23,676 nt of DNA from IMG/VR virus record IMGVR_UViG_3300037042_000820, positions 1 to 23,676 of that record; one strand, written 5' to 3'. Position numbers and translations under genes: made by a program. A model generated the notes under the pieces. It did not search any database and had not been told where the DNA came from. It was given only the letters and a program-made list of their open reading frames with translations. Of the stretch, positions 2 to 11,274 are shown piece by piece; positions within the stretch are counted from its first letter, which is position 1; each line of letters starts with the position of its first letter. The stretch is from a virus.

Positions 2-226
2 TCGGCGACCTATGACGAGCCAGAGGGCGAGCGGTCGATGGGCAAGATCGTGCTGGCCTTCAACGCGATCACAGGCCGCGACCTGACCGAGAGCGAGGGC
101 TGGATGTTCATGCAGCAGGTCAAGCTCGTGCGGCTGTTCACGCGCCGCGAATACCACGCCGACAGCGCCGAGGACAACATCGCCTATGCCGCGCTGCTGG
201 CCGAAGCGAAGGGAGAGGGGCGGTGA
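2..226 (+). CDS. DUF6378-like phage protein, 5' partial
   Basis: The reading frame is open from base 2, so the gene starts before the window. The visible 74 residues run through GERSMGKIVLAFNAITGRDL, then a Trp-containing helix (EGWMFMQQVKLVRL) and end with AEDNIAYAALLAEA. From memory this pattern (start GERS, AFNAITG, EGW, then D/A-rich helix before the end) matches the C-terminal half of DUF6378, a small helical family of unknown function common in phages and prophages. The ATG at 38 is internal to the conserved region and is unlikely to be the true start. The stop overlaps the start of the next plus-strand gene as GTGA, which implies a coupled pair. These two genes are probably the end of an early or metabolic transcript running against the late operon. 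Confidence 0.7.
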   Translation, partial: SATYDEPEGERSMGKIVLAFNAITGRDLTESEGWMFMQQVKLVRLFTRREYHADSAEDNIAYAALLAEAKGEGR

Positions 227-444
227 AGGGCGTCCCGCGCGAGATCGAGGCGGCCTTGATCGCCATGGGCCAGCCGTGGGAGCTGAAACCCGGCGGCAGG
301 CACATCAAGATCATGGTCTGCGGGCAGCTGGCCGGGGTCTTGCCGATCAACGGCAAGTGCGAAAACGACCGCCGGGCGACGCTCAACATCGTGTCCCAGA
401 TCAAACGGGTGGCGCGCACTGGGCACGCCGCCCGTCGGGGTTAG
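223..444 (+). CDS. HicA-like small phage protein
   Basis: This 73-residue protein starts at GTG overlapping the preceding stop by four bases, with a purine-rich ribosome-binding stretch (GGGAGAGGGG) just upstream. Residues 16 to 45 (GQPWELKPGGRHIKIMV followed by a Gly-Leu-Pro turn) and the helix with DRRATLNIVSQIKR recall the HicA/YcfA double-stranded-RNA-binding-like fold; His27 sits where HicA toxins have their active histidine. Many phages carry such proteins without a HicB partner, and no HicB-like gene is visible here, so an mRNA-cleaving toxin role is only a possibility. The last four codons and the TAG stop lie in a 27-bp repeat that also ends two minus-strand genes, so the C-terminus may have been reshaped by a rearrangement. 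Confidence 0.65.
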   Translation: MKGVPREIEAALIAMGQPWELKPGGRHIKIMVCGQLAGVLPINGKCENDRRATLNIVSQIKRVARTGHAARRG

Positions 445-457
445 CAGTACCGGTCAG
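431..457. repeat. 27-bp direct repeat, copy 1
   Basis: The 27 bases beginning CCCGTCGGGG and ending ACCGGTCAG are identical to positions 1005 to 1031. This copy lies across the convergent junction: it contains the TAG stop of the plus-strand HicA-like gene (442 to 444) and the TGA stop of the minus-strand 174-residue gene (454 to 456). Similarity extends weakly upstream (GGGCA before both copies). It looks like a scar of duplication or of insertion of the 174-residue gene. Confidence 0.9.
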
Positions 458-978
458 TATGTGGGCCGTTTCTTGCTCCCCGCAACGCGCCCACCGACCG
501 CGAAATCGGATTTTAACGGCACCCACTTCTTCGCCATGGCGTCCCAGCGTTGCGCTGTTTTCACGGACAGAGGTGCATCGGGCGTAAAATCGCCGATAGG
601 CACGCGCACGGTGCCAGCGCCTTTGTTCCACGGACGGCCAAACACACCCTCTTCGTCAGCGGGCGACCACCATTTTTGGCCCACGCCATGCTTGGTCTGC
701 CCCGATGGCGGCAGCTGGAAAACACCAGAGGCCAACGCGTCTTCTATCTCGGCCAAAGACATGTTGCGCGACGCGTACATGGCCTGCTCGATATTGTGCA
801 TCGGGCGTCCCTCCAGAATGCTCGGCTTGGCATCGCGCGCGGCCAACGGTGGGTATGCCATGATGTTTTTGATTTGTCGGGCCTGCGCGGGTTGCTGAGC
901 CTTTCCCGCAGCGCGCTTCTTCGCTTCGGCAGCGGCGGTTCGCGCAGCACGGACAGCTAAACCAACACCTCGGGGCAT
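454..978 (-). CDS. Phage protein, 174 aa, unknown function
   Basis: This is the last gene of the minus-strand late operon and I do not recognise its family. The N-terminus is a basic Ala-rich helix (residues 6 to 30, LAVRAARTAAAEAKKRAAGK), resembling in style the N-termini of the two genes upstream. The middle (residues 50 to 110) is helical with the segment MSLAEIEDALASGVFQLPP, followed by an aromatic part containing KWWSPADEEGVFGRPWNKG. The C-terminus is basic and carries the Gly-Gly motif FAVGGRV seen in neighbours. It starts at ATG 978, behind a weak AAAGG ribosome-binding site, 36 bases after the stop of the 410-residue gene. Its own stop codon is provided by the 27-bp repeat. A virion-packaged or accessory protein is my guess. 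Confidence 0.7.
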   Translation of the reverse strand: MPRGVGLAVRAARTAAAEAKKRAAGKAQQPAQARQIKNIMAYPPLAARDAKPSILEGRPMHNIEQAMYASRNMSLAEIEDALASGVFQLPPSGQTKHGVGQKWWSPADEEGVFGRPWNKGAGTVRVPIGDFTPDAPLSVKTAQRWDAMAKKWVPLKSDFAVGGRVAGSKKRPTY

Positions 979-1004: not shown

Positions 1005-1031
1005 CCCGTCGGGGTTAGCAGTACCGGTCAG
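1005..1031. repeat. 27-bp direct repeat, copy 2
   Basis: This is identical to positions 431 to 457. Here it spans the last residues and the TAA stop (1015 to 1017) of the minus-strand 410-residue gene plus ten bases of its 3' flank. The minus-strand reading frame used here differs from that used in copy 1, where the stop is TGA. Confidence 0.9.
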
Positions 1032-2247
1032 CCAGCTCTGCGAGGCCGCCCTGCGCGAAGATCGGGCGCTTCGCCTGCACAACGCCCTCGCCGACCACTT
1101 CGTCAGGCGACAGGCCGGTGATGCGGGAGGTGCGCTCGATCGCGTCGTTGACGATGCCGATCATCGGGCCCGGGGTGTATGAGCCGGGCTTCGCCTTCGG
1201 CAGCTTGATGCCTGCCCACATGACGTCCTGCCCTTCAGCCGCCGGTACGCCGAGCTGACGCACCAGTCGCTGGAGCGCACCTTCGTAGATGCCGTAGGTG
1301 TTGGACGGCGGGCTGGCCAGCTTTGGATCCCACGCGCCGAGCATCTGCTCGTCAAGGGTCGCACGATCGAGGTGCCCAAGGAAGTCGCCCGAGAAGTTGA
1401 AGCGTTTCGGGTTAGCGGGGCTCAGGCCCGCACCGCGATTGATGATCGCCTCGTACTGCGCGATGTTCGGCATGATGCCGTACTTGCCGCCGCCGATCGG
1501 GTAGGGCAGCTCGTACGACGCCAACGGGGTCGGCATGTCGTTCTCGTTCAGGTAGTTCATGTAGTGCGCAAGGCGGAAGTTGGCGTCGGGGTCCATGCCG
1601 CCGGTCGTCGCGGCCATAGCATCGGCGAACCGCTGCTTGTACATGTTCTGGCCCTGCTCAACGCCGAGGCCTTGCTTGAACGCGTCTTCGAGCTGGCCCA
1701 TGGCGTACCACCGCTTGGCACCCGGGTACTGCGACCCGAGGTCGTACGCCGCAACAAGGCGAGCCAATGCGTCTGGGTCGTTCGCCAACATCTCGTACTT
1801 GTCGATCGTTGCCTGCTTCGCGGGCATGATGTCGAGCGTGTTGCCGACCAGCGGATAGTCAGCCGGGTTGACGTAGTAGCGGTCTTCCGGGTTGAAGAAA
1901 GGCGTGTAGCCTTCGTCCTTCATCTCCGAAGTGACGCGGGCCATTTCCTTGGCGAGAGCGAGGCCTTCTTCGCTGGGCCCCTTGGCGGGGTACATTGTCC
2001 CCTTTTTTGGGTCGAGCGTCATCACGGGTTCGCCGACCTGCGGGTACCGCTGCGCGGCATCCTCGCGGCTGAACCCTGCGCGGCTGGGCGCGCGCTTTTC
2101 AGCGCCGGAGACACGACGGATGATGTTAGGGGCCGCCGGTACGGCGAGACTTGACGCGGGAGGGGCGGCGCGGGTCGCAGCCTTCGCTGCAGCGGCCTTC
2201 GCTGCCTTCTGCGCGGCCTTAGCGGCGAGGTTGCTCAGCTTACCCAT
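1015..2247 (-). CDS. Phage protein, 410 aa, possible DUF7178-like/HhH-like core
   Basis: The N-terminus (residues 1 to 24, MGKLSNLAAKAAQKAAKAAA and onward) is an Ala/Lys-rich helix almost the same as in the ADP-ribosyltransferase-like gene upstream. Residues 35 to 120 look like a linker. Residues 150 to 370 form a helical domain with KRWYAMGQLEDAF, FADAMAATTGGMDPDANF, FSGDFLGHLDRATLDEQML, WDPKLA and VRQLGVPAAEGQDVMWAGIK. This order of motifs weakly recalls DUF7178-type phage proteins, which have an endonuclease-III-like helix-hairpin-helix look; the activity is unknown and I am not sure of the match. The C-terminus has IFAQGGLAE before the end. The start overlaps the upstream stop by eight bases (ATGGGTAA), so the two are coupled. 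Gene position and the shared N-terminus suggest it travels with the ADP-ribosyltransferase-like protein. Confidence 0.7.
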   Translation of the reverse strand: MGKLSNLAAKAAQKAAKAAAAKAATRAAPPASSLAVPAAPNIIRRVSGAEKRAPSRAGFSREDAAQRYPQVGEPVMTLDPKKGTMYPAKGPSEEGLALAKEMARVTSEMKDEGYTPFFNPEDRYYVNPADYPLVGNTLDIMPAKQATIDKYEMLANDPDALARLVAAYDLGSQYPGAKRWYAMGQLEDAFKQGLGVEQGQNMYKQRFADAMAATTGGMDPDANFRLAHYMNYLNENDMPTPLASYELPYPIGGGKYGIMPNIAQYEAIINRGAGLSPANPKRFNFSGDFLGHLDRATLDEQMLGAWDPKLASPPSNTYGIYEGALQRLVRQLGVPAAEGQDVMWAGIKLPKAKPGSYTPGPMIGIVNDAIERTSRITGLSPDEVVGEGVVQAKRPIFAQGGLAELADRYC

Positions 2248-3349
2248 TAACTTCTACCTTCCCACCCATGTTGTACCGTTTCATGATCTCGATCAGATCC
2301 GGGTTCATAATAACATAATTCTCGGTGCCGACGCCACGGTTGCGTGAACCTTGATCCAGATACCGGACGCCCGGGATGCCCGCGCCGGTCAGCAAGCTCG
2401 ACATGGCGGGGTCGCGAACGTCGGAGCGCATGCGCAACTGGTGGTAGAGATCGCCACCGAGCGTCGGGTACTTCCCGTCATCGAGGCCCTCGATCTGATA
2501 CTTTTGGAGCAACGGCAGAACCGACTGCATGACCTCTGGCTGCTCAGTCACCGGAACGTCCCACGCCAGCATCTTTGCGGGATCGACGTCCAGATCGACC
2601 TGATAGAGCGAGCCGGGCGCGGACCATTGGGGTTCCACGTTCCGGTTGTACCAGTCTACTGCCTCGGGGCTGTACACGTCAGAGCTGCGTTTCAGTTTCT
2701 GCTGGATTGCAAGGGTATCACCGGCAGCGGTAAGATCCTCCAAAAGCGCAGCGCGGTCGTAGAATTTCTGCGCTTGCCCCGGGGGCAGATTGTCGGCCTC
2801 GTCCATTATCCTGCGGTACAAAGCGTAGGCATCTTCCCCGCCGATCATGGGATTGGGCGCATCGTGCGGCAAGTTTTCGTCACGAAATATACGAGCTACG
2901 TCCGGGTTCTCGGCAAAGTACAGACCGTGCCCGAAGGCTTGTGCGCCTTCGCCGGTGCCGATCCTATCCATGCGGAAACGTCCGAGGGGGTACTGCTGGG
3001 CGATCTCGACGCCGGATGGGAGGTTGGCCGGATCGACCCGCGCGCTCTCAAGGAACAGCTCTTCTCCGGTTCCGGGATCGCGAACTTTCGTCTCCGGCGC
3101 AAAGCGGTGCGGCGTGCCGTGATACACTTCGAGCTTCGGACGGGTGGGCGCGGGTTTAGCTGGCACTGAAAGCGACGTGCGCCGGACAGGGGCCGTGTAA
3201 ATCGGCACTTCCTCGTCCAGATCTGGAAGCTCCCAGTCCCCTTCGTCTGGGGTGGTGATCTTCTTAGGCTTGGGCGTAGAAGCCCTAGCAGCAGCCTTCT
3301 GCGCGGCTTTTCGTGCGGCTTTGGCAGCAAGGTTGGAGAGGCGGCCCAT
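2240..3349 (-). CDS. ADP-ribosyltransferase-like phage protein (polyvalent-protein ART type)
   Basis: The 369-residue product has a basic Ala-rich N-terminal helix (1 to 23), a Pro/Asp-rich linker (25 to 70), then an ADP-ribosyltransferase-like domain. Visible motifs are VYHGTPHRF with His77, GEGAQAFGHGLYFAE at 133 to 147 with Tyr144, the strand SLYQVDLDVDPAKMLAWDVP, the helix-turn with GIPGVRYLDQGSR near 324 to 336, and ENYVIMNPDLIEIM. This order is that of ART domains found in polyvalent phage proteins; such enzymes move ADP-ribose from NAD+ to target proteins. The third catalytic residue (Glu/Gln) is not obvious to me. T4 Alt is a known virion-packaged ADP-ribosyltransferase, so packaging and ejection is a plausible role here, but it is inferred. 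The start overlaps the upstream stop as TGATG, and the C-terminus carries YNMGGKVEV. Confidence 0.8.
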   Translation of the reverse strand: MGRLSNLAAKAARKAAQKAAARASTPKPKKITTPDEGDWELPDLDEEVPIYTAPVRRTSLSVPAKPAPTRPKLEVYHGTPHRFAPETKVRDPGTGEELFLESARVDPANLPSGVEIAQQYPLGRFRMDRIGTGEGAQAFGHGLYFAENPDVARIFRDENLPHDAPNPMIGGEDAYALYRRIMDEADNLPPGQAQKFYDRAALLEDLTAAGDTLAIQQKLKRSSDVYSPEAVDWYNRNVEPQWSAPGSLYQVDLDVDPAKMLAWDVPVTEQPEVMQSVLPLLQKYQIEGLDDGKYPTLGGDLYHQLRMRSDVRDPAMSSLLTGAGIPGVRYLDQGSRNRGVGTENYVIMNPDLIEIMKRYNMGGKVEVNG

Positions 3350-4098
3350 CAGCGGCGGCCCTTCTTGGCGGCGAGACCGCCGTGCTTCTTCCGCATTCTC
3401 TTACGGGCGAGCATCGCGGCACCGGGGATCACGGCGAGGGGCGGCAGCGCGCTGGCTGCATCGACCATGCTCTGCGCGCGGGCTGCTTCGGCGTCGTCCT
3501 TGACGTAAGGGTCGAGCATCTGCGAGCCTTCGCGCATCTGGGCGTAATCGAAGGGTGTTGCCGCCAAAAGGGTCTGGGGCGACGCGTACATCAGGGTGTT
3601 GAACACCGAGCCGTACGGATCTTCTTTGACAGCCTCGTACCCGCTGCGGGCAAGGTCGCCAACGTCCTGCGCGACGCCCATGGGCGTGTTGCTCTGGAAG
3701 TACTGACCAACAGCGCGAAGCGCACCGGGCGCTTCACGCGCGACGGCGGCAGGGATAGCCTGCGGCCTGTAAGCAGCAGCGCCCAGCCGCACCGGCATCT
3801 GCACGTCGTCCGGCTTGCGAGCGCCGCGCCCACCGGCTTGGCGGAAACGAGCTTCGTTCGATCGCACGCCAGCTTCAACGATCGCCCGGTTGCTGCCCAG
3901 CGGCTGCAGGTTCCGGCGGATGCGCGCGACTTCTTCGGGCGACCGGCCTTCGATGTTCTCCGCGATCCACGCCGTTGCGGCAGCCGGGGTGAGGCCATAG
4001 CGATCGGCGAGGTCCGCCGCAGCGCCGACAAGGTCGTTGCCCCGACGGCTCGCCGCCATCACAAGGTTGTCGAACCAAGAGGCCTGTTTCCCAGCCAT
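3349..4098 (-). CDS. Phage protein, 249 aa, probable virion component
   Basis: I do not recognise the family. The protein is Ala/Arg-rich and basic. It begins MAGKQASWFDNLVMAASRRG, continues with helices including DLADRYGLTPAAATAWIAEN and RSPEEVARIRRNL, and has a central region of Gly/Arg/Ala-rich linker. Residues 217 to 235 form a short hydrophobic stretch (ALPPLAVIPGAAMLA) directly followed by a strongly basic tail with the motif KKHGGLAAKKGRR. The gene starts three bases after the stop of the 914-residue gene and its stop overlaps the ART-like start. A small internal or membrane-interacting virion protein is possible; nothing points to an enzyme. Confidence 0.65.
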   Translation of the reverse strand: MAGKQASWFDNLVMAASRRGNDLVGAAADLADRYGLTPAAATAWIAENIEGRSPEEVARIRRNLQPLGSNRAIVEAGVRSNEARFRQAGGRGARKPDDVQMPVRLGAAAYRPQAIPAAVAREAPGALRAVGQYFQSNTPMGVAQDVGDLARSGYEAVKEDPYGSVFNTLMYASPQTLLAATPFDYAQMREGSQMLDPYVKDDAEAARAQSMVDAASALPPLAVIPGAAMLARKRMRKKHGGLAAKKGRR

Positions 4099-4101
4099 GC
4101 C

Positions 4102-6846
4102 TCAGTCCTTCAGGTAAGCAGACATTTCGGGCGGAAGCTCGGGAACCGTGATCCCGTACCGCTCGCGCAACCTGCGACGCTTTTCCTCTTCGGTCTCTTG
4201 AAGCCGGGTGCCAAGCTGAGCCTCTGCAAGGAAAGCCTGCGGGTACTTCTGGTAGAGATCCGCAATACTCTTCCCGAGTGTGCCGAGGCCCTCGCCGAAC
4301 GGCGACTGCGCGGCGGCGTCGAATGCACGCTTGCCGGTGCCCGCGACGCGGCCCGCGCCGTACGTCAACTCACCAGCCAGACGCGGGGAAGATGCCAGCA
4401 GCGTCGGGATGGTGGCCAACAACGTCATCGGGTTGACCAACGCGCCAGCAGCGGTCAACGGCAGACCGCCAGCCGCGACCCCACCGGTAATGCCGCGTGC
4501 GAACGGTGCCGAAAGCATCTGCCCGGACGTGGCGGACATGAGAGTGCCCGTCGGATCGAGTTCTGCGAGGCGTTCGCCTTGCCTTGCCCGCATGCCGTAG
4601 TTTGTGAAGGCGTTGTTGCGCAGGATCGACTGGAGCTTGCGCGCCGCAGCATCAACCTTGAGCGGCTTGCCGCGCGCCTGACCGAGGCTGAAGGTGTCCT
4701 CAAGCTCGCGGGCCTCGACAGCGGCCCTCTCGTAATCGCGCATGATGTCAGCATAGACCGGGTCGTGCTTGACCAGCTCTTGCCGGACAGCATTGTAAGC
4801 GGTCTTGGCGATGTTGGCGGCGCTCTTGTCGTACTGACCGCCGATTTTTGCGCCAATCTCGTACAAGTCCTGTTTGAACTGGTCCATGGCCATCGGTTCG
4901 AGCAAAGAAGGATCTGCGGCAGCCTGCTGAGCGTAATACTCAACGGTGTCGTTCATCTGATCCCATGCGACGTGATCCGGGGGCCGCTTCGGCGCGTTGA
5001 GCATTGCGTCGTAGTTGCGCGGCTTAATGCCCGACATGCGCTGGCGAACAACGTCGATGCTGAGCGGGACAGGGTTCTGCCCGAATTGCTGCATAGCAGT
5101 CGAATACGCGTTTGACGCCGCTTGGCGCAGGCCCCTGATTGCGTCGCGCGCGGTGTAGACGATGCTTTCCGCGCTCTCGCCCGGGCGGCGCATGCCCTCT
5201 GTGAAGCTCTCGCTGCGCGCTGTTGGAGCGCCGGTGACGCCGCGTTCGAAACCCGAACCCGCCGCCTCGCGGATTGCCGCTCCGCCAGTATTAGACGGGA
5301 ACCCCACGACGTTGCTCGGCAGGTTTTCAACCCCTTGGACCGCGCCCGGAATGCGGTCCTTGCCCGCTTGATACAGCGCGGGCAGGCCTTCCGTCACTGC
5401 GGCAACACCACCGGACAGCGGATCAATGACACGACCGGCAGTCGCAACCTTTTTGCCAAAACTCCCTGCGACGCCCGGAAGACGTGCGGCAGCCGTGCCG
5501 CCGCCGCTCAAGATCATCGACAGATCGCCGAGGAGCCCGAGGGGATCTTTGACGCCGGTGCGCTGGATGGCGTCGAGACTGCCGTAGCGTTCCTTCATCG
5601 CGTCGGCGAAGGCCTTAGTGGTCGGGCCGTCAAGCCGCCCCTGACCCAGCTCCATAGCTAGATCGGTGAACGTCTTGATGGTGCCGGTGCGCGTGCCCGT
5701 CAGCGCGCTGAGGAGCGCATCCTTGGGGAGGGCCGTCAGACCTTCAACCAGCTGCGCGCCGCTCTCGGGCAGGTTGCGTGCGGCTTGGGCAACGCTATCG
5801 AAGAGGCCAGCGTTCTCGGACGCGGCCTTATCAATCTGGCTGTAGTCGATGGTCTGAGTGCCAACGCGCTGTTCGGGGGACTGCTTGAAGAAGTCTTGGT
5901 TGTCGGCAATCGTGCGCTGCATGTAGTCGGCGCGCTGCGAGGGCAGCAGATGGCCTTCTGCAATCGATTTGTCGGCCAGCAGCTGCGCGTAACCTTCCGG
6001 TGTCGCGCCCGGCTGACGAACGTACGTGACGACTTCGGCTTCGCTCTCCGGCGACAGACGCCAGCCCTTGATGTCTTCACCCGCGATCTGCATGCCTTCC
6101 GGCACGCCTTCGAGCAGGCCGACCCTCGGGCCTCCGGCCTCGCGATCCTTGCGGATGCGATCGGCTTCGAGCTTCTTGTCGTACGCGTCGATCTTCGGCT
6201 GGTAGAGCTTCAGCGGATCACCCGGCAGGATCTTGTCGACCTCGATCGGCTTAACCCCAAGCGGGCCCAGCTGTTCGTTGAACTGGCCGATGCGCCCCTC
6301 GAAGCCTTTGCGCGTTTCTTCATAAGGCAGCCGATAGGTGTCAATCCGGTTCCGCATGAACGCGATGATGTCGCGCCGCGCCTCGGGGCTGAACTTACCT
6401 TCGTTTTGGAACTGATCGCGGAACTGCTGCGGAATGTACTGCAGCGCCGTCTGAAGATTGTTGTAACGCTCGATGTCGCCCTGCATGACCGCGCCGGTAG
6501 GATCTTGCACCTTGGCCGCGAGTGTCACGAGGTCTTGGTCGCCAGCGCGCCCGATCGGGACATTCAGCGCCGTTGTGAAGTAGCGCATGCCCTGATCGTA
6601 CGTCTTGACGATCTCCAGCCCTTCGAACGTCTTCAGCTCGTCGCGGGCATTCGCGTTCACGTCGCGGATGATCTTGAGCTGCGCGTCGGTCAGGTCGGCC
6701 TTAGCCTTCGGCGCAATGTACGACAAATCGGCCTGCCCGCGCGCAGTGCTGGTCTGCGTGCCTTGGGTCTGGGCTTCTTCCTGACTGCGTTTTTGCGCCG
6801 AAGGGCCGCCAAAACGGCTGGGATCGATCTTGATCTTCTCACCCAT
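4102..6846 (-). CDS. Large internal/ejected virion protein candidate, 914 aa
   Basis: The N-terminal 70 residues are polar and probably disordered. Residues 60 to 175 hold a segment with DQDLVTLAAKVQDPTGAV (103 to 120), followed by a helical domain ending RRDIIAFMRNRIDTY. From memory this DQxL(V/L)xxxxKxxDPTG segment recurs in large structural proteins of environmental podoviruses, often proposed to be internal virion proteins. The middle is Gly/Ala-rich (around 430 to 520). Residues 540 to 770 are helical and charged, with the segment RDYERAAVEARELEDTF. Residues 785 to 818 form a hydrophobic Ala/Leu/Gly stretch compatible with membrane insertion. The charged tail contains EEEKRRRLRERYG. No transglycosylase or protease motif is visible. 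It overlaps the upstream stop by one base (TGATG). Channel-forming ejection protein is my inference. Confidence 0.65.
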   Translation of the reverse strand: MGEKIKIDPSRFGGPSAQKRSQEEAQTQGTQTSTARGQADLSYIAPKAKADLTDAQLKIIRDVNANARDELKTFEGLEIVKTYDQGMRYFTTALNVPIGRAGDQDLVTLAAKVQDPTGAVMQGDIERYNNLQTALQYIPQQFRDQFQNEGKFSPEARRDIIAFMRNRIDTYRLPYEETRKGFEGRIGQFNEQLGPLGVKPIEVDKILPGDPLKLYQPKIDAYDKKLEADRIRKDREAGGPRVGLLEGVPEGMQIAGEDIKGWRLSPESEAEVVTYVRQPGATPEGYAQLLADKSIAEGHLLPSQRADYMQRTIADNQDFFKQSPEQRVGTQTIDYSQIDKAASENAGLFDSVAQAARNLPESGAQLVEGLTALPKDALLSALTGTRTGTIKTFTDLAMELGQGRLDGPTTKAFADAMKERYGSLDAIQRTGVKDPLGLLGDLSMILSGGGTAAARLPGVAGSFGKKVATAGRVIDPLSGGVAAVTEGLPALYQAGKDRIPGAVQGVENLPSNVVGFPSNTGGAAIREAAGSGFERGVTGAPTARSESFTEGMRRPGESAESIVYTARDAIRGLRQAASNAYSTAMQQFGQNPVPLSIDVVRQRMSGIKPRNYDAMLNAPKRPPDHVAWDQMNDTVEYYAQQAAADPSLLEPMAMDQFKQDLYEIGAKIGGQYDKSAANIAKTAYNAVRQELVKHDPVYADIMRDYERAAVEARELEDTFSLGQARGKPLKVDAAARKLQSILRNNAFTNYGMRARQGERLAELDPTGTLMSATSGQMLSAPFARGITGGVAAGGLPLTAAGALVNPMTLLATIPTLLASSPRLAGELTYGAGRVAGTGKRAFDAAAQSPFGEGLGTLGKSIADLYQKYPQAFLAEAQLGTRLQETEEEKRRRLRERYGITVPELPPEMSAYLKD

Positions 6847-7559: not shown

Positions 7560-9530
7560 TTATCGTCCCCCAGTGCCAGCAAGCGTGAGCGCCGCACCGG
7601 CAAGATTGCCGACCATGCTGCTCGACGGGCCCTTGTTCGTCTGCAGCGACACCTGACCTTGCGGGACGCCGCCAGAGACACCGCCGAACGTCTTCGTCAT
7701 CTGGTCGATCTGAGCCTGATCGTAACCGCTCGCGCGCAGGAACTCCTGATAGTTCGCGTCGCGCCGTGCCTGCTCCAGAGCCTGCTGCTGGTTGCCCGCG
7801 CCGGTAACGGCCTGAGCGCCCGTGAGGCCCTGCTGCTGCATCTGCTGAGCAAACTGGCCAAGCTGACCCGATGCCGCCAGTTGATTGGCGGTGTCGGTGC
7901 CGTACATGCTCGCAACCTGATTGGCGAGTGTTGACATGAACTGCTGCTGGTTCTGCCCGATCCCTGCGTACTGAGCGCCCAGAGCGCCCATCTGCTGACC
8001 TGCGTTGGCCAGAGACTGCTGCTGCCCAGCGCCCAGAGCGCCGAACTGCTGGCCGATGTTCGTGAGCGCCTGCTGGTCCTGTCCAGTGAGCGCACCGTAC
8101 TGTTGGCCCAACGCGCCGACCTGCTGACCGGCTTGGGCCAGAGCCTGCTGCTGCCCGGCACCCAAGGCACCGTACTGTTGACCGATGTTCGCGAGGGTCT
8201 GCTGCTGCTGCCCTGTGAGCGCGCCGTACTGCTGACCCAGCGCGCCGATCTGCTGCCCGGCTTGGGCGATGGCCTGCTGCTGCCCAGCGCCCAAAGCACC
8301 GTACTGCTGGCCGATGTTCGAGAGGGCCTGTTGGTCCTGCCCAGTGAGCGCACCGTACTGCTGGCCGAGGGCCCCCAGCTGCTGACCAGCCTGCCCCAGA
8401 ACACCCTGCTGCTGGAAGCCGAAGTTGCCTGCGGTCTGCGCAAGTTGCCCCTGCCGCGCAAGATCCGCTTGGCTGAGGCCAGCGGCCTGCGTGTAGCCTT
8501 CCGCAAGGGCCTGACGCTGCTGCTGCCCAACACTATCCTGCACGTCGCGCAGGGCGCGGGCCGTGTCGGTCATCATGCCCGACGGAGCGCCCGAAGCGCC
8601 GGTGCCCGGACGGGTCGGACCGCCAAGCTGACCGGCTTTAATATACTTGCTCGTGATGGCTGGCATCAGCTGCTCTTGCAGCGTGCGCGCGCCAAGCTCA
8701 CCGAAACGGTTGACGACGTTTTCGGTGTACGGGTTCATGTAGCTGCCGATGTTCGACACGCTGCTCTGACCGGCCTGCTGCAGATACGGCTGCGCCATGT
8801 TCAGGCCCGTTGGGTCCGTGGACTGCATCGTCAGGTTAGCACCTGCCCGCATGCCGGGCATGGCAGCGCCAGCCGCAGACAGGTTAGAAGCCTGCTGCAG
8901 GTACGGCGAGGCGAGATTGAGCGCCATGGGGTTGGTGCTTTGCATCGCCAGATTGGCACCCTGCTGCATGCCGGGCGCGGCGGCGTCGGCAGGGGACATG
9001 CTCGCCGCCTGCTGTAGATACGGCGACGCATAATTGAGCGCCATCGGGTTGGTGCTTTGCAGCGCCAGATTTGTGCCCATTTGCATGTTCGGCGCGGCAG
9101 CGCCAGCCGAGGACATGTTCGAAGCCTGCTGCAGGTACGGCGCTGCGAAGTTAAGCGCCATGGGATTGGTGCTGGCTTGTGTGTACTGCGCTGCTTGACC
9201 CATCGCGTTGTAGGCAGGGATCATGCCCTGCTGGTTCGCGGCCTGCTGAAGGTACGGCTGTGCTGCGCCGAGGCTCGATCGGTTCAGAGTGTTGGCCCCC
9301 GTCTGGATCGCACCACCGAGCAGCGGCTGGTAGCCGGTAGCTGCCTGCTGCGTCATGTCGAAGCCCTGCTGCTGGGTCGGGTTGAACCCGGCCACGCGCT
9401 GGCTGGCGTCGTACGGCGTGAAGGGACGAGAGGCGAGGGTCTGCTGGTTCGACAGGATGTCCTGCGCGTAGTTGCTGTACCACGACGGCGTCGTGGACAT
9501 CGTGTACGTGGTTTGGGTCTTTGTAGCCAT
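7560..9530 (-). CDS. Gln/Gly/Ala-rich tandem-repeat virion protein, 656 aa
   Basis: The 656-residue product contains two unrelated tandem repeat arrays. Residues 120 to 253 hold three full and one partial copy of a 39-residue unit beginning STNPMALN and containing PYLQQA. Residues 382 to about 521 hold three full copies plus one partial copy of a 43-residue unit built on GQQYGALTGQ and GALGAGQQQ. Between them is a unique segment with YMNPYTENVVNRFGELGART and KYIKAGQLGGPTRPGTG. The N-terminus has PSWYSNYAQDIL and FTPYDASQRVAGFNPTQQQG, and the C-terminal part has DANYQEFLRASGYDQAQIDQ. The flanking motifs are ones I associate with repeat-rich structural proteins of environmental phages; whether it is internal, tail or fibre-like is unknown. 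The start overlaps the upstream stop as TAATG. Confidence 0.75.
   Translation of the reverse strand: MATKTQTTYTMSTTPSWYSNYAQDILSNQQTLASRPFTPYDASQRVAGFNPTQQQGFDMTQQAATGYQPLLGGAIQTGANTLNRSSLGAAQPYLQQAANQQGMIPAYNAMGQAAQYTQASTNPMALNFAAPYLQQASNMSSAGAAAPNMQMGTNLALQSTNPMALNYASPYLQQAASMSPADAAAPGMQQGANLAMQSTNPMALNLASPYLQQASNLSAAGAAMPGMRAGANLTMQSTDPTGLNMAQPYLQQAGQSSVSNIGSYMNPYTENVVNRFGELGARTLQEQLMPAITSKYIKAGQLGGPTRPGTGASGAPSGMMTDTARALRDVQDSVGQQQRQALAEGYTQAAGLSQADLARQGQLAQTAGNFGFQQQGVLGQAGQQLGALGQQYGALTGQDQQALSNIGQQYGALGAGQQQAIAQAGQQIGALGQQYGALTGQQQQTLANIGQQYGALGAGQQQALAQAGQQVGALGQQYGALTGQDQQALTNIGQQFGALGAGQQQSLANAGQQMGALGAQYAGIGQNQQQFMSTLANQVASMYGTDTANQLAASGQLGQFAQQMQQQGLTGAQAVTGAGNQQQALEQARRDANYQEFLRASGYDQAQIDQMTKTFGGVSGGVPQGQVSLQTNKGPSSSMVGNLAGAALTLAGTGGR
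7968..8387. repeat. 129-bp in-frame tandem repeats (43-aa units)
   Basis: Three full copies and one partial copy of a 129-bp unit encode residues 382 to 521 of the 656-residue protein. Units begin at residues 382, 425, 468 and 511 and differ mostly by single substitutions (for example QDQQALSN, QQQQTLAN, QDQQALTN). Each unit itself contains repeated GQQ(Y/F)GAL heptads, so it is a nested repeat. Confidence 0.9.
8772..9173. repeat. 117-bp in-frame tandem repeats (39-aa units)
   Basis: Unit starts at residues 120, 159, 198 and 237 of the 656-residue protein are exactly 39 residues apart; the fourth unit is cut short after PYLQQAG. At DNA level the spacing can be read directly from the GCGCCAT words at 8921, 9038 and 9155, which are 117 bases apart. 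Confidence 0.9.
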
Positions 9531-11038
9531 TAGATGCGCCCTCCGGCCATGTATTTGTCAGCGGACTTGGCATTGTGGCTGAACTTGCCCTTGGCCAGCT
9601 TCTTACCCTTATGCTTGCGGATCTTGACGCGCAAGTCATCGAGTTTCTTCGCGCCCGCTTTGGGCGAGCCGTTGCCGAGCAGTGCGACCGTTTCGGCGTC
9701 GATAACGTATTCACCGTCGGACAGCATCGCAGGGATGTCGTCGCTGCGCCCATCGCCGGGGCCGCTAACAGCGAAGCTGCTGCGACCGGAGCGGCCTTCG
9801 CCGACATCACCGCCGACGGCAAAGCCACTGAAGTAGCGTTTGGCGTATTCAGCCGCTGCGCTTTCGGGCAGTTCGCCACTAGCGATGCTGGCGAGCTTAA
9901 AGCTGCCGGGGCTCTTGGCGTTGAACGAAGGACCGAAGAACTGCTCCTGCGTCATCTCGTCTGTCTTGTCTTTCGGCTTCAATGCGTCGGACAAAGCCGC
10001 CGCGCCGATGACCGCAGGCACGGCGTATTTATTCTTCGCGATGCCGAGGCCGAGGAAATCCTTGTCCCAGAAGCTCGGCTTTGCGGCGGCAGCGGGAGCG
10101 GCAGCCGCTGCGGTGTCCATCGCGGCCTGCGTGCTGGGGTTTACCGCAAGCCGCGACATCGCGTCGACACCGGCTTGCGTGCTGGAGGGGAGGTTGAAGT
10201 CGTACGACGGCATGCCCGGCAGCCGCAGCGCGTTCGACGTCACACTGGGCGTCAGTTGCAAGCTCGGGCTGTACGAAGTCATGCTCGAAAGCGGCGAGCC
10301 GGAGAGCGACGGGGTCATTGACGGGAGCTGTGTGCTGGAGAACGACGGGATTGGCCCGGCCATCGAACCGCTGCCGGTCAGTGACGGCGCGGTGCTGGCT
10401 GACATCGTCGCGGGAGCCGCGCTGGTCACCTTAATGTCGGAAGGGGTGGGAGCGCCCGGCGTCACCTTCGCCATGGGGTTGCGCAGATAATTGCCGAGGC
10501 CGACGCTTAGCGCGCCGGTAAGAGGATTGCCGCCGAGCGCGGCGCTTGTGCCAGCACCGAGCGCGGCGCTGCCGAGAGCTTGAGCAAGACGCGGGCTTAC
10601 GGCTTTGCCGAGAACGCTTGTGCCGAGCTTCGCACCGACGCCACCAGCGCCGCCAGCGCCGAGGCCGCCCAGTGCGCCGCCGAGCAGCGCGCCTTTGATG
10701 CCGCCACCGCCGGTTGCGCCGAGGGCAGCGCCAACGGCTGCGGAGGCCAAGGGGCCAACGCCGGGGATGAAGTTGAGGGCGATCGGGACGACCGCCTTGA
10801 GGATCTTTCCGAGCTTGCCGAGAAAGAACTCAGGCATGCCGGTTTCGGGGTTGATGGTCGGCTCGCCGTACTCGGCCACCATTTCGGCGAACTCGTCGTC
10901 GTTGACGTGAACAAGACGGCTGTCGCCGTTGCGCCCTGCTTTCCTGACCGCCAGCGCCTCGTCGTGGAGGCCGCCTTCAGCGTAGCCCACAGGCCCGCCT
11001 TCGTAGAGCATCACGGGAAAGCGGTTAGCAGAGTACAT
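9530..11038 (-). CDS. Gly-rich phage structural protein with DDIPAMLSDGEYV motif, 502 aa
   Basis: I place the start at ATG 11038 (MYSANRFPVM), where it forms TAATG with the upstream stop behind an AGGACAAGG site; the in-frame ATG at 11089 would overlap the upstream gene by 52 bases. Residues 10 to 25 have Gly-Gly motifs (YEGGPVGYAEGG). Residues 39 to 72 include DSRLVHVNDDEFAEM and INPETGMPEFF, a pattern I know from phage structural proteins. Residues 75 to 185 are a Gly/Ala-rich hydrophobic region that could enter membranes. Residues 195 to 320 are Ser/Pro/Thr/Ala-rich. The C-terminal part holds FAVGGDVG, SGPGDGRSDDIPAMLSDGEY (425 to 444) and a Lys-rich tail ending KYMAGGRI. The SDxIPAxLSxGExV motif occurs in tail and virion proteins of many phages. 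Exact role unknown. Confidence 0.75.
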   Translation of the reverse strand: MYSANRFPVMLYEGGPVGYAEGGLHDEALAVRKAGRNGDSRLVHVNDDEFAEMVAEYGEPTINPETGMPEFFLGKLGKILKAVVPIALNFIPGVGPLASAAVGAALGATGGGGIKGALLGGALGGLGAGGAGGVGAKLGTSVLGKAVSPRLAQALGSAALGAGTSAALGGNPLTGALSVGLGNYLRNPMAKVTPGAPTPSDIKVTSAAPATMSASTAPSLTGSGSMAGPIPSFSSTQLPSMTPSLSGSPLSSMTSYSPSLQLTPSVTSNALRLPGMPSYDFNLPSSTQAGVDAMSRLAVNPSTQAAMDTAAAAAPAAAAKPSFWDKDFLGLGIAKNKYAVPAVIGAAALSDALKPKDKTDEMTQEQFFGPSFNAKSPGSFKLASIASGELPESAAAEYAKRYFSGFAVGGDVGEGRSGRSSFAVSGPGDGRSDDIPAMLSDGEYVIDAETVALLGNGSPKAGAKKLDDLRVKIRKHKGKKLAKGKFSHNAKSADKYMAGGRI

Positions 11039-11274
11039 TAGCCTTGTCCTTCGAGCATCGGGTAGGCGCGTTCCGCCCACTGTCGCCAATCATTGAACTG
11101 GTACGGGTCTGGGACAGTGCGCTGCGCAAATGGTGAAGCTCGCAAAAATGCTGAAGCCCACCCCTGCCATTCGCTCTCGTCGGTCAGCTTGCCAAAACTC
11201 CAAGCGTCTCCGACAGACAGCACTACACTATCAGCCCAATCTCGTAAAGTCATGCCGACTGGATTGATTGACAT
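11038..11274 (-). CDS. Small conserved phage protein, 78 aa
   Basis: This 78-residue acidic, Trp-rich protein reads MTLRDWADSVVLSVGDAWSF from residue 8 and contains DPYQFNDWRQWAERAYPMLE near the end. I recognise the pattern (MTLRxWADS, GDAWSFG, VPDPYQFxDWxxWA) as a short conserved protein next to structural genes in environmental podoviruses; function is not known. Its six tryptophans suggest a compact helical protein. It overlaps the hub-like gene's stop as TGATG and the following gene as TAATG, so it is translated as part of the tail/virion block. Confidence 0.75.
   Translation of the reverse strand: MSINPVGMTLRDWADSVVLSVGDAWSFGKLTDESEWQGWASAFLRASPFAQRTVPDPYQFNDWRQWAERAYPMLEGQG

Follow-up and report, generated by a model that had tools for sequence, protein, structure and literature searches.

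The window analysed here is a 23,676-base virus record (IMGVR_UViG_3300037042_000820) with late genes on the minus strand, and our subject is a short N-terminal sequence, hereafter the tag, shared by unrelated proteins encoded at the end of its late operon. The late genes run in the order tail fibres, P22 gp10-like tail protein (phrog_3287 by PHROGs match), internal proteins, ejection protein, a 249-residue protein, an ADP-ribosyltransferase (ART)-like protein, a 410-residue protein and a 174-residue protein. The ejection or internal virion protein (914 residues; 4102..6846, minus strand) matches over residues 396-835 the phage protein phiM5_31, whose annotation is that of a putative internal virion protein and which was detected in the phiM5 particle proteome. 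It is followed by the 249-residue protein (3349..4098, minus strand), a candidate tag adaptor of the class that we call A, and then by the candidate cargo, i.e., an ART-PolyVal-like protein of 369 residues (2240..3349, minus strand), the 410-residue protein (1015..2247, minus strand), which consists of tag, linker and a helical body predicted to resemble HhH-GPD DNA glycosylases, and possibly the 174-residue protein (454..978, minus strand). For the 410-, 174-, 249- and 914-residue proteins neither Pfam nor PHROGs yielded a useful match, and a weak YebC match at 0.028 was set aside. Gene calls followed simple open reading frame rules, with starts chosen manually; the automatic rule misplaced the start of the ART gene in the relative L018, which lowered the statistics given below rather than raising them.

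The sequence-only reading had noted that the ART-like and 410-residue proteins begin almost alike although their bodies are unrelated, and alignment and codon comparison confirmed this. Residues 1-24 of the ART-like protein (3278..3349, minus strand; MGRLSNLAAKAARKAAQKAAARAS) and of the 410-residue protein (2176..2247, minus strand; MGKLSNLAAKAAQKAAKAAAAKAA) have in common MG(R/K)LSNLAAKAA and then an Ala/Lys stretch. Over residues 2-30 the pair reaches a Smith-Waterman score of 85, compared to 33.1±5.2 for composition-preserving shuffles (z=10.0), while no BLASTP match at E≤1e-3 was found between the bodies. Across codons 2-17, 13 of 16 residues are identical, 10 of these 13 are written with different codons, and nucleotide identity is 0.65. 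The codon differences indicate that the tag peptide is kept by selection, and for this pair the claim of protein-level selection with no recent copy was thus upheld. The 174-residue protein had been said to carry a looser version; its residues 1-24 (907..978, minus strand) do show a likeness to either partner, but a weak one (z=3.2, p about 0.01-0.02), and no relative of this protein was found in any locus fetched. Structure models place a helix at residues 2-22 of the ART tag and at residues 4-25 of the 410-residue protein's tag, the latter followed by an unstructured linker to about residue 51; at low confidence, this arrangement fits a flexible label. Because Ala or Lys makes up half or more of residues 2-25 in most tags of this class, the likeness could in principle be a low-complexity coincidence in genes of high guanine-cytosine content. 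A z of 10 over shuffles of the same composition means that low complexity does not explain it, and the specificity of the collection-wide scan and the like behaviour of tags that are not Ala/Lys-rich (both below) speak against it as well; we rejected this explanation on the shuffle test and regard it as extremely improbable.

The tag recurs in related phages. The same tag class stands at the starts of ART, 410-family, PcfJ-like, DUF7178-like and other genes in L007, L008, L010/L018, L011 and L097. All viral contigs of the collection were scanned for DNA that could encode M[SG]xx[ST]x[LF]A[AV]KAAxxAA, with a degenerate pattern; 20 stretches matched and, among those with genes read, all begin cargo genes of the window's phage group. 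Four tagged genes in a row, from at least three families, were found in L205 (ParB-ART, two PcfJ-like and one other), and two tagged genes each in L199/L203, L200/L201/L202/L208 and L207. The search of bacterial genomes returned one contig, in a metagenome bin, and our searches for papers turned up none that describes such a tag. Thus, the tag is not restricted to the two genes in which it was first noticed; it recurs, as had been anticipated, on many non-homologous genes at the ends of late operons, within the window's phage group only.

Other relatives carry other tags in the same place: MSWQ... on three L096 genes, MSRASR... on two L098 genes and, in L186, a 45-residue tag MS[SG]RxRKPSPTRIIESGLRSA(I/V)RSGSDYIPD... 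on two genes. In a comparison of eight genomes, one for each tag class or state, tag similarity averaged 47 within genomes and 21 between them, and label permutation gave p values of 5e-5 to 1.5e-4, whichever genome stood for the window's class. The tags are also swapped on homologous bodies. In the 410 family, the window protein and its 441-residue homologue in L096 are 79% identical in their bodies and differ in their tags, and the same holds for the ParB-ART proteins L199_354 and L096_357 (bodies likewise 79% identical); for both pairs the tag scores are at background (14-16). Conversely, A-class members of one family with bodies only 36-63% identical still have tag scores of 52-84. One explanation of the shared starts is that they are functionless leftovers of gene duplication, or of a recombination hot-spot that exchanges bodies. 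Cargo bodies clearly do move among genomes, and at the DNA level the two L186 genes retain 83% identity. In most genomes, however, tag DNA is only 60-73% identical, with the protein sequence kept through synonymous change, and the tag follows the class of the adaptor. Codon divergence led us to reject recent DNA copying for most genomes, the L186 pair being the younger case, and we judge a functionless remnant very unlikely.

Proteins encoded just upstream of the first cargo gene can be sorted into classes, and these match the tag class. A single BLAST clustering of these upstream proteins was dropped, as everything merged via short C-terminal stretches of ejection proteins, and hidden Markov models built from standalone adaptors were therefore used instead, that for class A from standalone 249-residue proteins only. 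The class A profile matched 13 distinct upstream loci, and the Ala/Lys tag comes next in all 13, compared to 0 of 16 upstream loci of other classes, some of which are ejection proteins with weak matches and not true adaptors. A class B adaptor (204 residues) stands before the MSWQ tag in 3/3 cases. Since some of the 13 loci had first been found via the tag, the test was reversed: scanning the viral collection with the profile of the 249-residue family returned 11 contigs, several of them near-copies, with an Ala/Lys tag on the next gene in 11/11. Among the cultured phages of the collection neither adaptor A nor adaptor C had a match. The 249-residue family also occurs as the C-terminal domain of the ejection protein itself, in L199 (968-1180) and L079 (935-1161), and the 204- and 187-residue adaptor classes are likewise fused to ejection proteins in L087, L082, L059 and L186. 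Mapped onto a tail-protein tree, the adaptor classes are scattered, changing as often as in shuffles (class A, 4 changes for 5 genomes; class B, 3 for 3; class C, 4 for 4), which argues that class and tag move together. L087 and L090 have near-identical tail proteins and different tag and adaptor states: one carries the MSWQ tag with a fused adaptor, its counterpart lacks both, and the two form a natural before/after comparison for module exchange.

The physical character of the tags bears on two further explanations. With a net charge of +3 to +6 and alternating Lys and Ala, A-class tags could act as histone-like nucleic-acid-binding tails, holding cargo on the packaged DNA or bringing it to host DNA with no protein receptor. 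The MSWQ tags and the tag of the L098 416-residue protein are nevertheless at 0 to –1 and equally genome-specific, so that the range from +6 to –1 argues against plain DNA binding; nor would a role of charge alone fix MGxLSxLA or follow the adaptor class. We consider this explanation unlikely. Roughly half of the tags have a larger amphipathic moment than shuffles, which, with the predicted helices, is what would be seen if the tag were an amphipathic signal for the membrane or the ejectosome channel, used for translocation or localisation of effectors after infection and not for loading into the virion. A host-facing signal is not expected to vary among close relatives and to match the adaptor class, although docking and translocation could be coupled, and on this balance we find a purely post-infection signal rather unlikely.

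The cargo domains in this phage group include ART-PolyVal, PcfJ and ParB. The 369-residue protein of the window matches no Pfam family at E≤1 and thus did not match PF18760 directly; its assignment comes through homologues, i.e., the 345-residue protein of L098 (32% identical, E 4e-32), which matches PF18760 at 3.4e-6, and phiGT1 gene 5 (E 4e-19), which matches at 1e-6, both of these matches lying just below the gathering score. Its model (predicted local distance difference test score 69.7, from 6 sequences) had no significant match in the PDB by Foldseek, and when the window's ART family was compared by hhalign with the ParB-ART family, the tag alone aligned and the ART core did not. Pfam and PHROGs identified no second domain in the window's cargo; the only two-domain cargo in relatives is ParB-ART. 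In L036/L037 (G003, G004), a ParB-ART relative is encoded ahead of the tail genes, outside the cargo cluster at the operon end; in L037 it stands about 8 kb (kilobases) upstream of the tail B gene. For the 410-residue protein, the modelled body resembles 8-oxoguanine DNA glycosylases, matching 3n0u with a Z of 9.6 and a root-mean-square deviation of 3.5 over 179 residues, a middling Z of a kind that helical folds reach by chance; DNA glycosylases and the DUF2419 queuosine enzyme account for all of the twelve top-scoring chains. Foldseek gave a non-significant E of 0.38, and no sequence match to HhH-GPD DNA glycosylases was found. K281 and D299, which might be the catalytic Lys and Asp, do not vary among 20 sequences of the family and stand 18 apart, a spacing like that of K129/D147 in MjOgg. 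The protein is possibly a virion DNA glycosylase. The 410 family (A6) is widespread (L095-L174), and in L154-L172 many of its genes are directly followed by an ART-like gene. In other phages both cargo families have members that stand or appear to stand close to the portal gene: phiGT1 gene 5 is two genes past it, and the genes of distant 410-family members are flanked by genes that resemble portal and scaffold/major capsid, roles read from gene order and sequence.

The shared N-terminus is probably a docking tag for packaging or ejection, by which non-homologous effectors are loaded onto an adaptor of the ejection protein. The tag, an amphipathic helix some 15-25 residues long with a flexible linker behind it, would bind an adaptor domain that is encoded beside the internal ejection protein or fused to its C-terminus; the product of any effector gene that acquired the resident tag would be loaded into the virion, and the loaded effectors would leave with the DNA into the host cell. 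More broadly, we see an even chance that tag and adaptor make up a two-part, horizontally exchanged loading code, with several cognate pairs in one phage group and unrelated effectors injectable via the resident tag. The original proposal was of a sorting, packaging or ejection tag. Its sorting part is well supported by the sharing of tags within genomes, their swapping and their tracking of the adaptor, whereas the virion is a presumed destination, suggested by the fusion of adaptors to the phiM5_31-like ejection protein, the portal-adjoining cargo families and the polyvalent-type domains. Binding of tag to adaptor, presence of the cargo in the virion and its injection would follow from this model. 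The kind of cargo agrees with delivery to the host: ART-PolyVal, PcfJ and ParB are domains of polyvalent proteins, for which injection is predicted, PcfJ also being counted among these domains. In the window's phage group, which is uncultured and appears podovirus-like (short-tailed), the tag looks like an address label. Cultured relatives by tail protein, the Caulobacter phages GB2A, RW, RLK and KcrB, have a tail protein 59% identical to that of the window; their genomes end at the ejection protein, and no cargo genes were found after it.

Several observations weigh against docking onto an adaptor. In L175, a 507-residue protein has an A-like tag with no adaptor A in the cluster and an untagged neighbour; in L095, the N-termini of the two cargo genes are not alike; and in L200-L208 the 170-residue upstream protein has just a weak match to adaptor A (30 bits). 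The tree offers few phylogenetically independent contrasts (2 and 3); all are concordant, but they are not significant alone. Furthermore, the adaptor adjoins the first cargo gene, and linkage could explain that pair, but not cargo genes 2-4. The 507-residue protein, present in L175/L176, is a DUF7178-like cargo with the tag MGIMSFAVKAAKAAKK, adjoining an untagged PcfJ-like protein; its body is 80% identical to the tagged 462-residue protein of L007, and this orphan tagged cargo is perhaps a recent arrival.

Among known systems, one of the nearest parallels is phage T4, in which diverse injected proteins have only the capsid targeting sequence (CTS) in common (PMC3012670), the ADP-ribosyltransferase Alt among them (PMC5694885, PMC5512222). 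Both the CTS and the present tag are short N-terminal sequences on non-homologous proteins, an internal location being presumed here. The CTS is a propeptide of 6-20 residues, which acts on the scaffolding core, is both required and enough for entry into the prohead, and is cut by the prohead protease at a site of [LI]xE type. By contrast, residues 1-60 of the window's tagged proteins have no shared [LI]xE cleavage site: such sites are absent from the 410-residue protein, and in the ART-like and 174-residue proteins they are confined to residues 44 and 54. The tag might still be cut by a protease of another type. The present phages also differ from T4 in being podovirus-like and in that the tag varies between close relatives along with the adaptor domain. 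In P1, the N-terminal 30 residues of DarB suffice to carry a reporter into the head, and no common sequence was found among the Dar proteins (PMC9024508), whereas here a common sequence is evident. The present tag would work as the T4 and P1 signals do but, unlike them, is specific to each genome and changes hands as one module with matching adaptors. The ejection proteins gp53 and gp54 of the giant phage SPN3US likewise have identical N-termini on diverged bodies (PMC5694885), but these are paralogues (34% identity) whose long propeptides are cleaved off, whereas the bodies here are unrelated. Finally, in its ART-PolyVal, PcfJ and ParB domains the cargo resembles the polyvalent proteins of Iyer et al. 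(2017). ART and ParB domains occur in those proteins, which are predicted to be injected early (PMC5512222). Polyvalent proteins join their domains in one polypeptide; the present cargo consists mostly of separate proteins united by a tag.

How proteins are chosen for injection with phage DNA has been detailed for T4 only, and partly for P1. Beside these, the comparisons suggest as new a set of class-specific tags with matching adaptors that are exchanged together. A tag that is visible in sequence, in several classes and with a matching upstream domain, makes effector loading directly testable, and injected phage effectors could be found by their tag instead of by an enzyme domain. If the loading code is true, it could supply orthogonal loading labels with which phages would deliver proteins to bacteria in the laboratory.

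Two further motifs were seen in the cargo and its neighbours. A C-terminal patch, in which xGG(L/K/R/I) follows an aromatic or basic residue and frequently leads into a basic tail, is shared by the window genes 454-978, 1015-2247, 2240-3349, 3349-4098 and 9530-11089, and likewise occurs in L095-L098 and L175-L187; examples are FAQGGLAELADRYC, YNMGGKVEVNG, HGGLAAKKGRR, FAVGGRVAGSKK and YMAGGRI. This patch crosses tag classes and is also present on the ejection protein of relatives. The motif [FL][ATS]V[KRP] (SLSVPA, SLAVPA, PLAVRK, GLAVKK) occurs 36 times in the cargo and adaptor proteins of 12 genomes, compared to 4.1±1.9 in shuffles, and at a density of 2.6 per 1000 residues, compared to 0.7 in other genes; we picked it with the data already in view, and its copies include homologous ones and ones inside the tag. 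Examples in the window are at residue 60 of the ART-like protein and residue 34 of the 410-residue protein. Two small convergent genes (38-226 and 223-444, plus strand) were also read in the window, one near DUF6378 (E 5.9e-5, below the cut-off) and the other, of 73 residues, without a clear family; in relatives, both are again found, next to the helicase gene.
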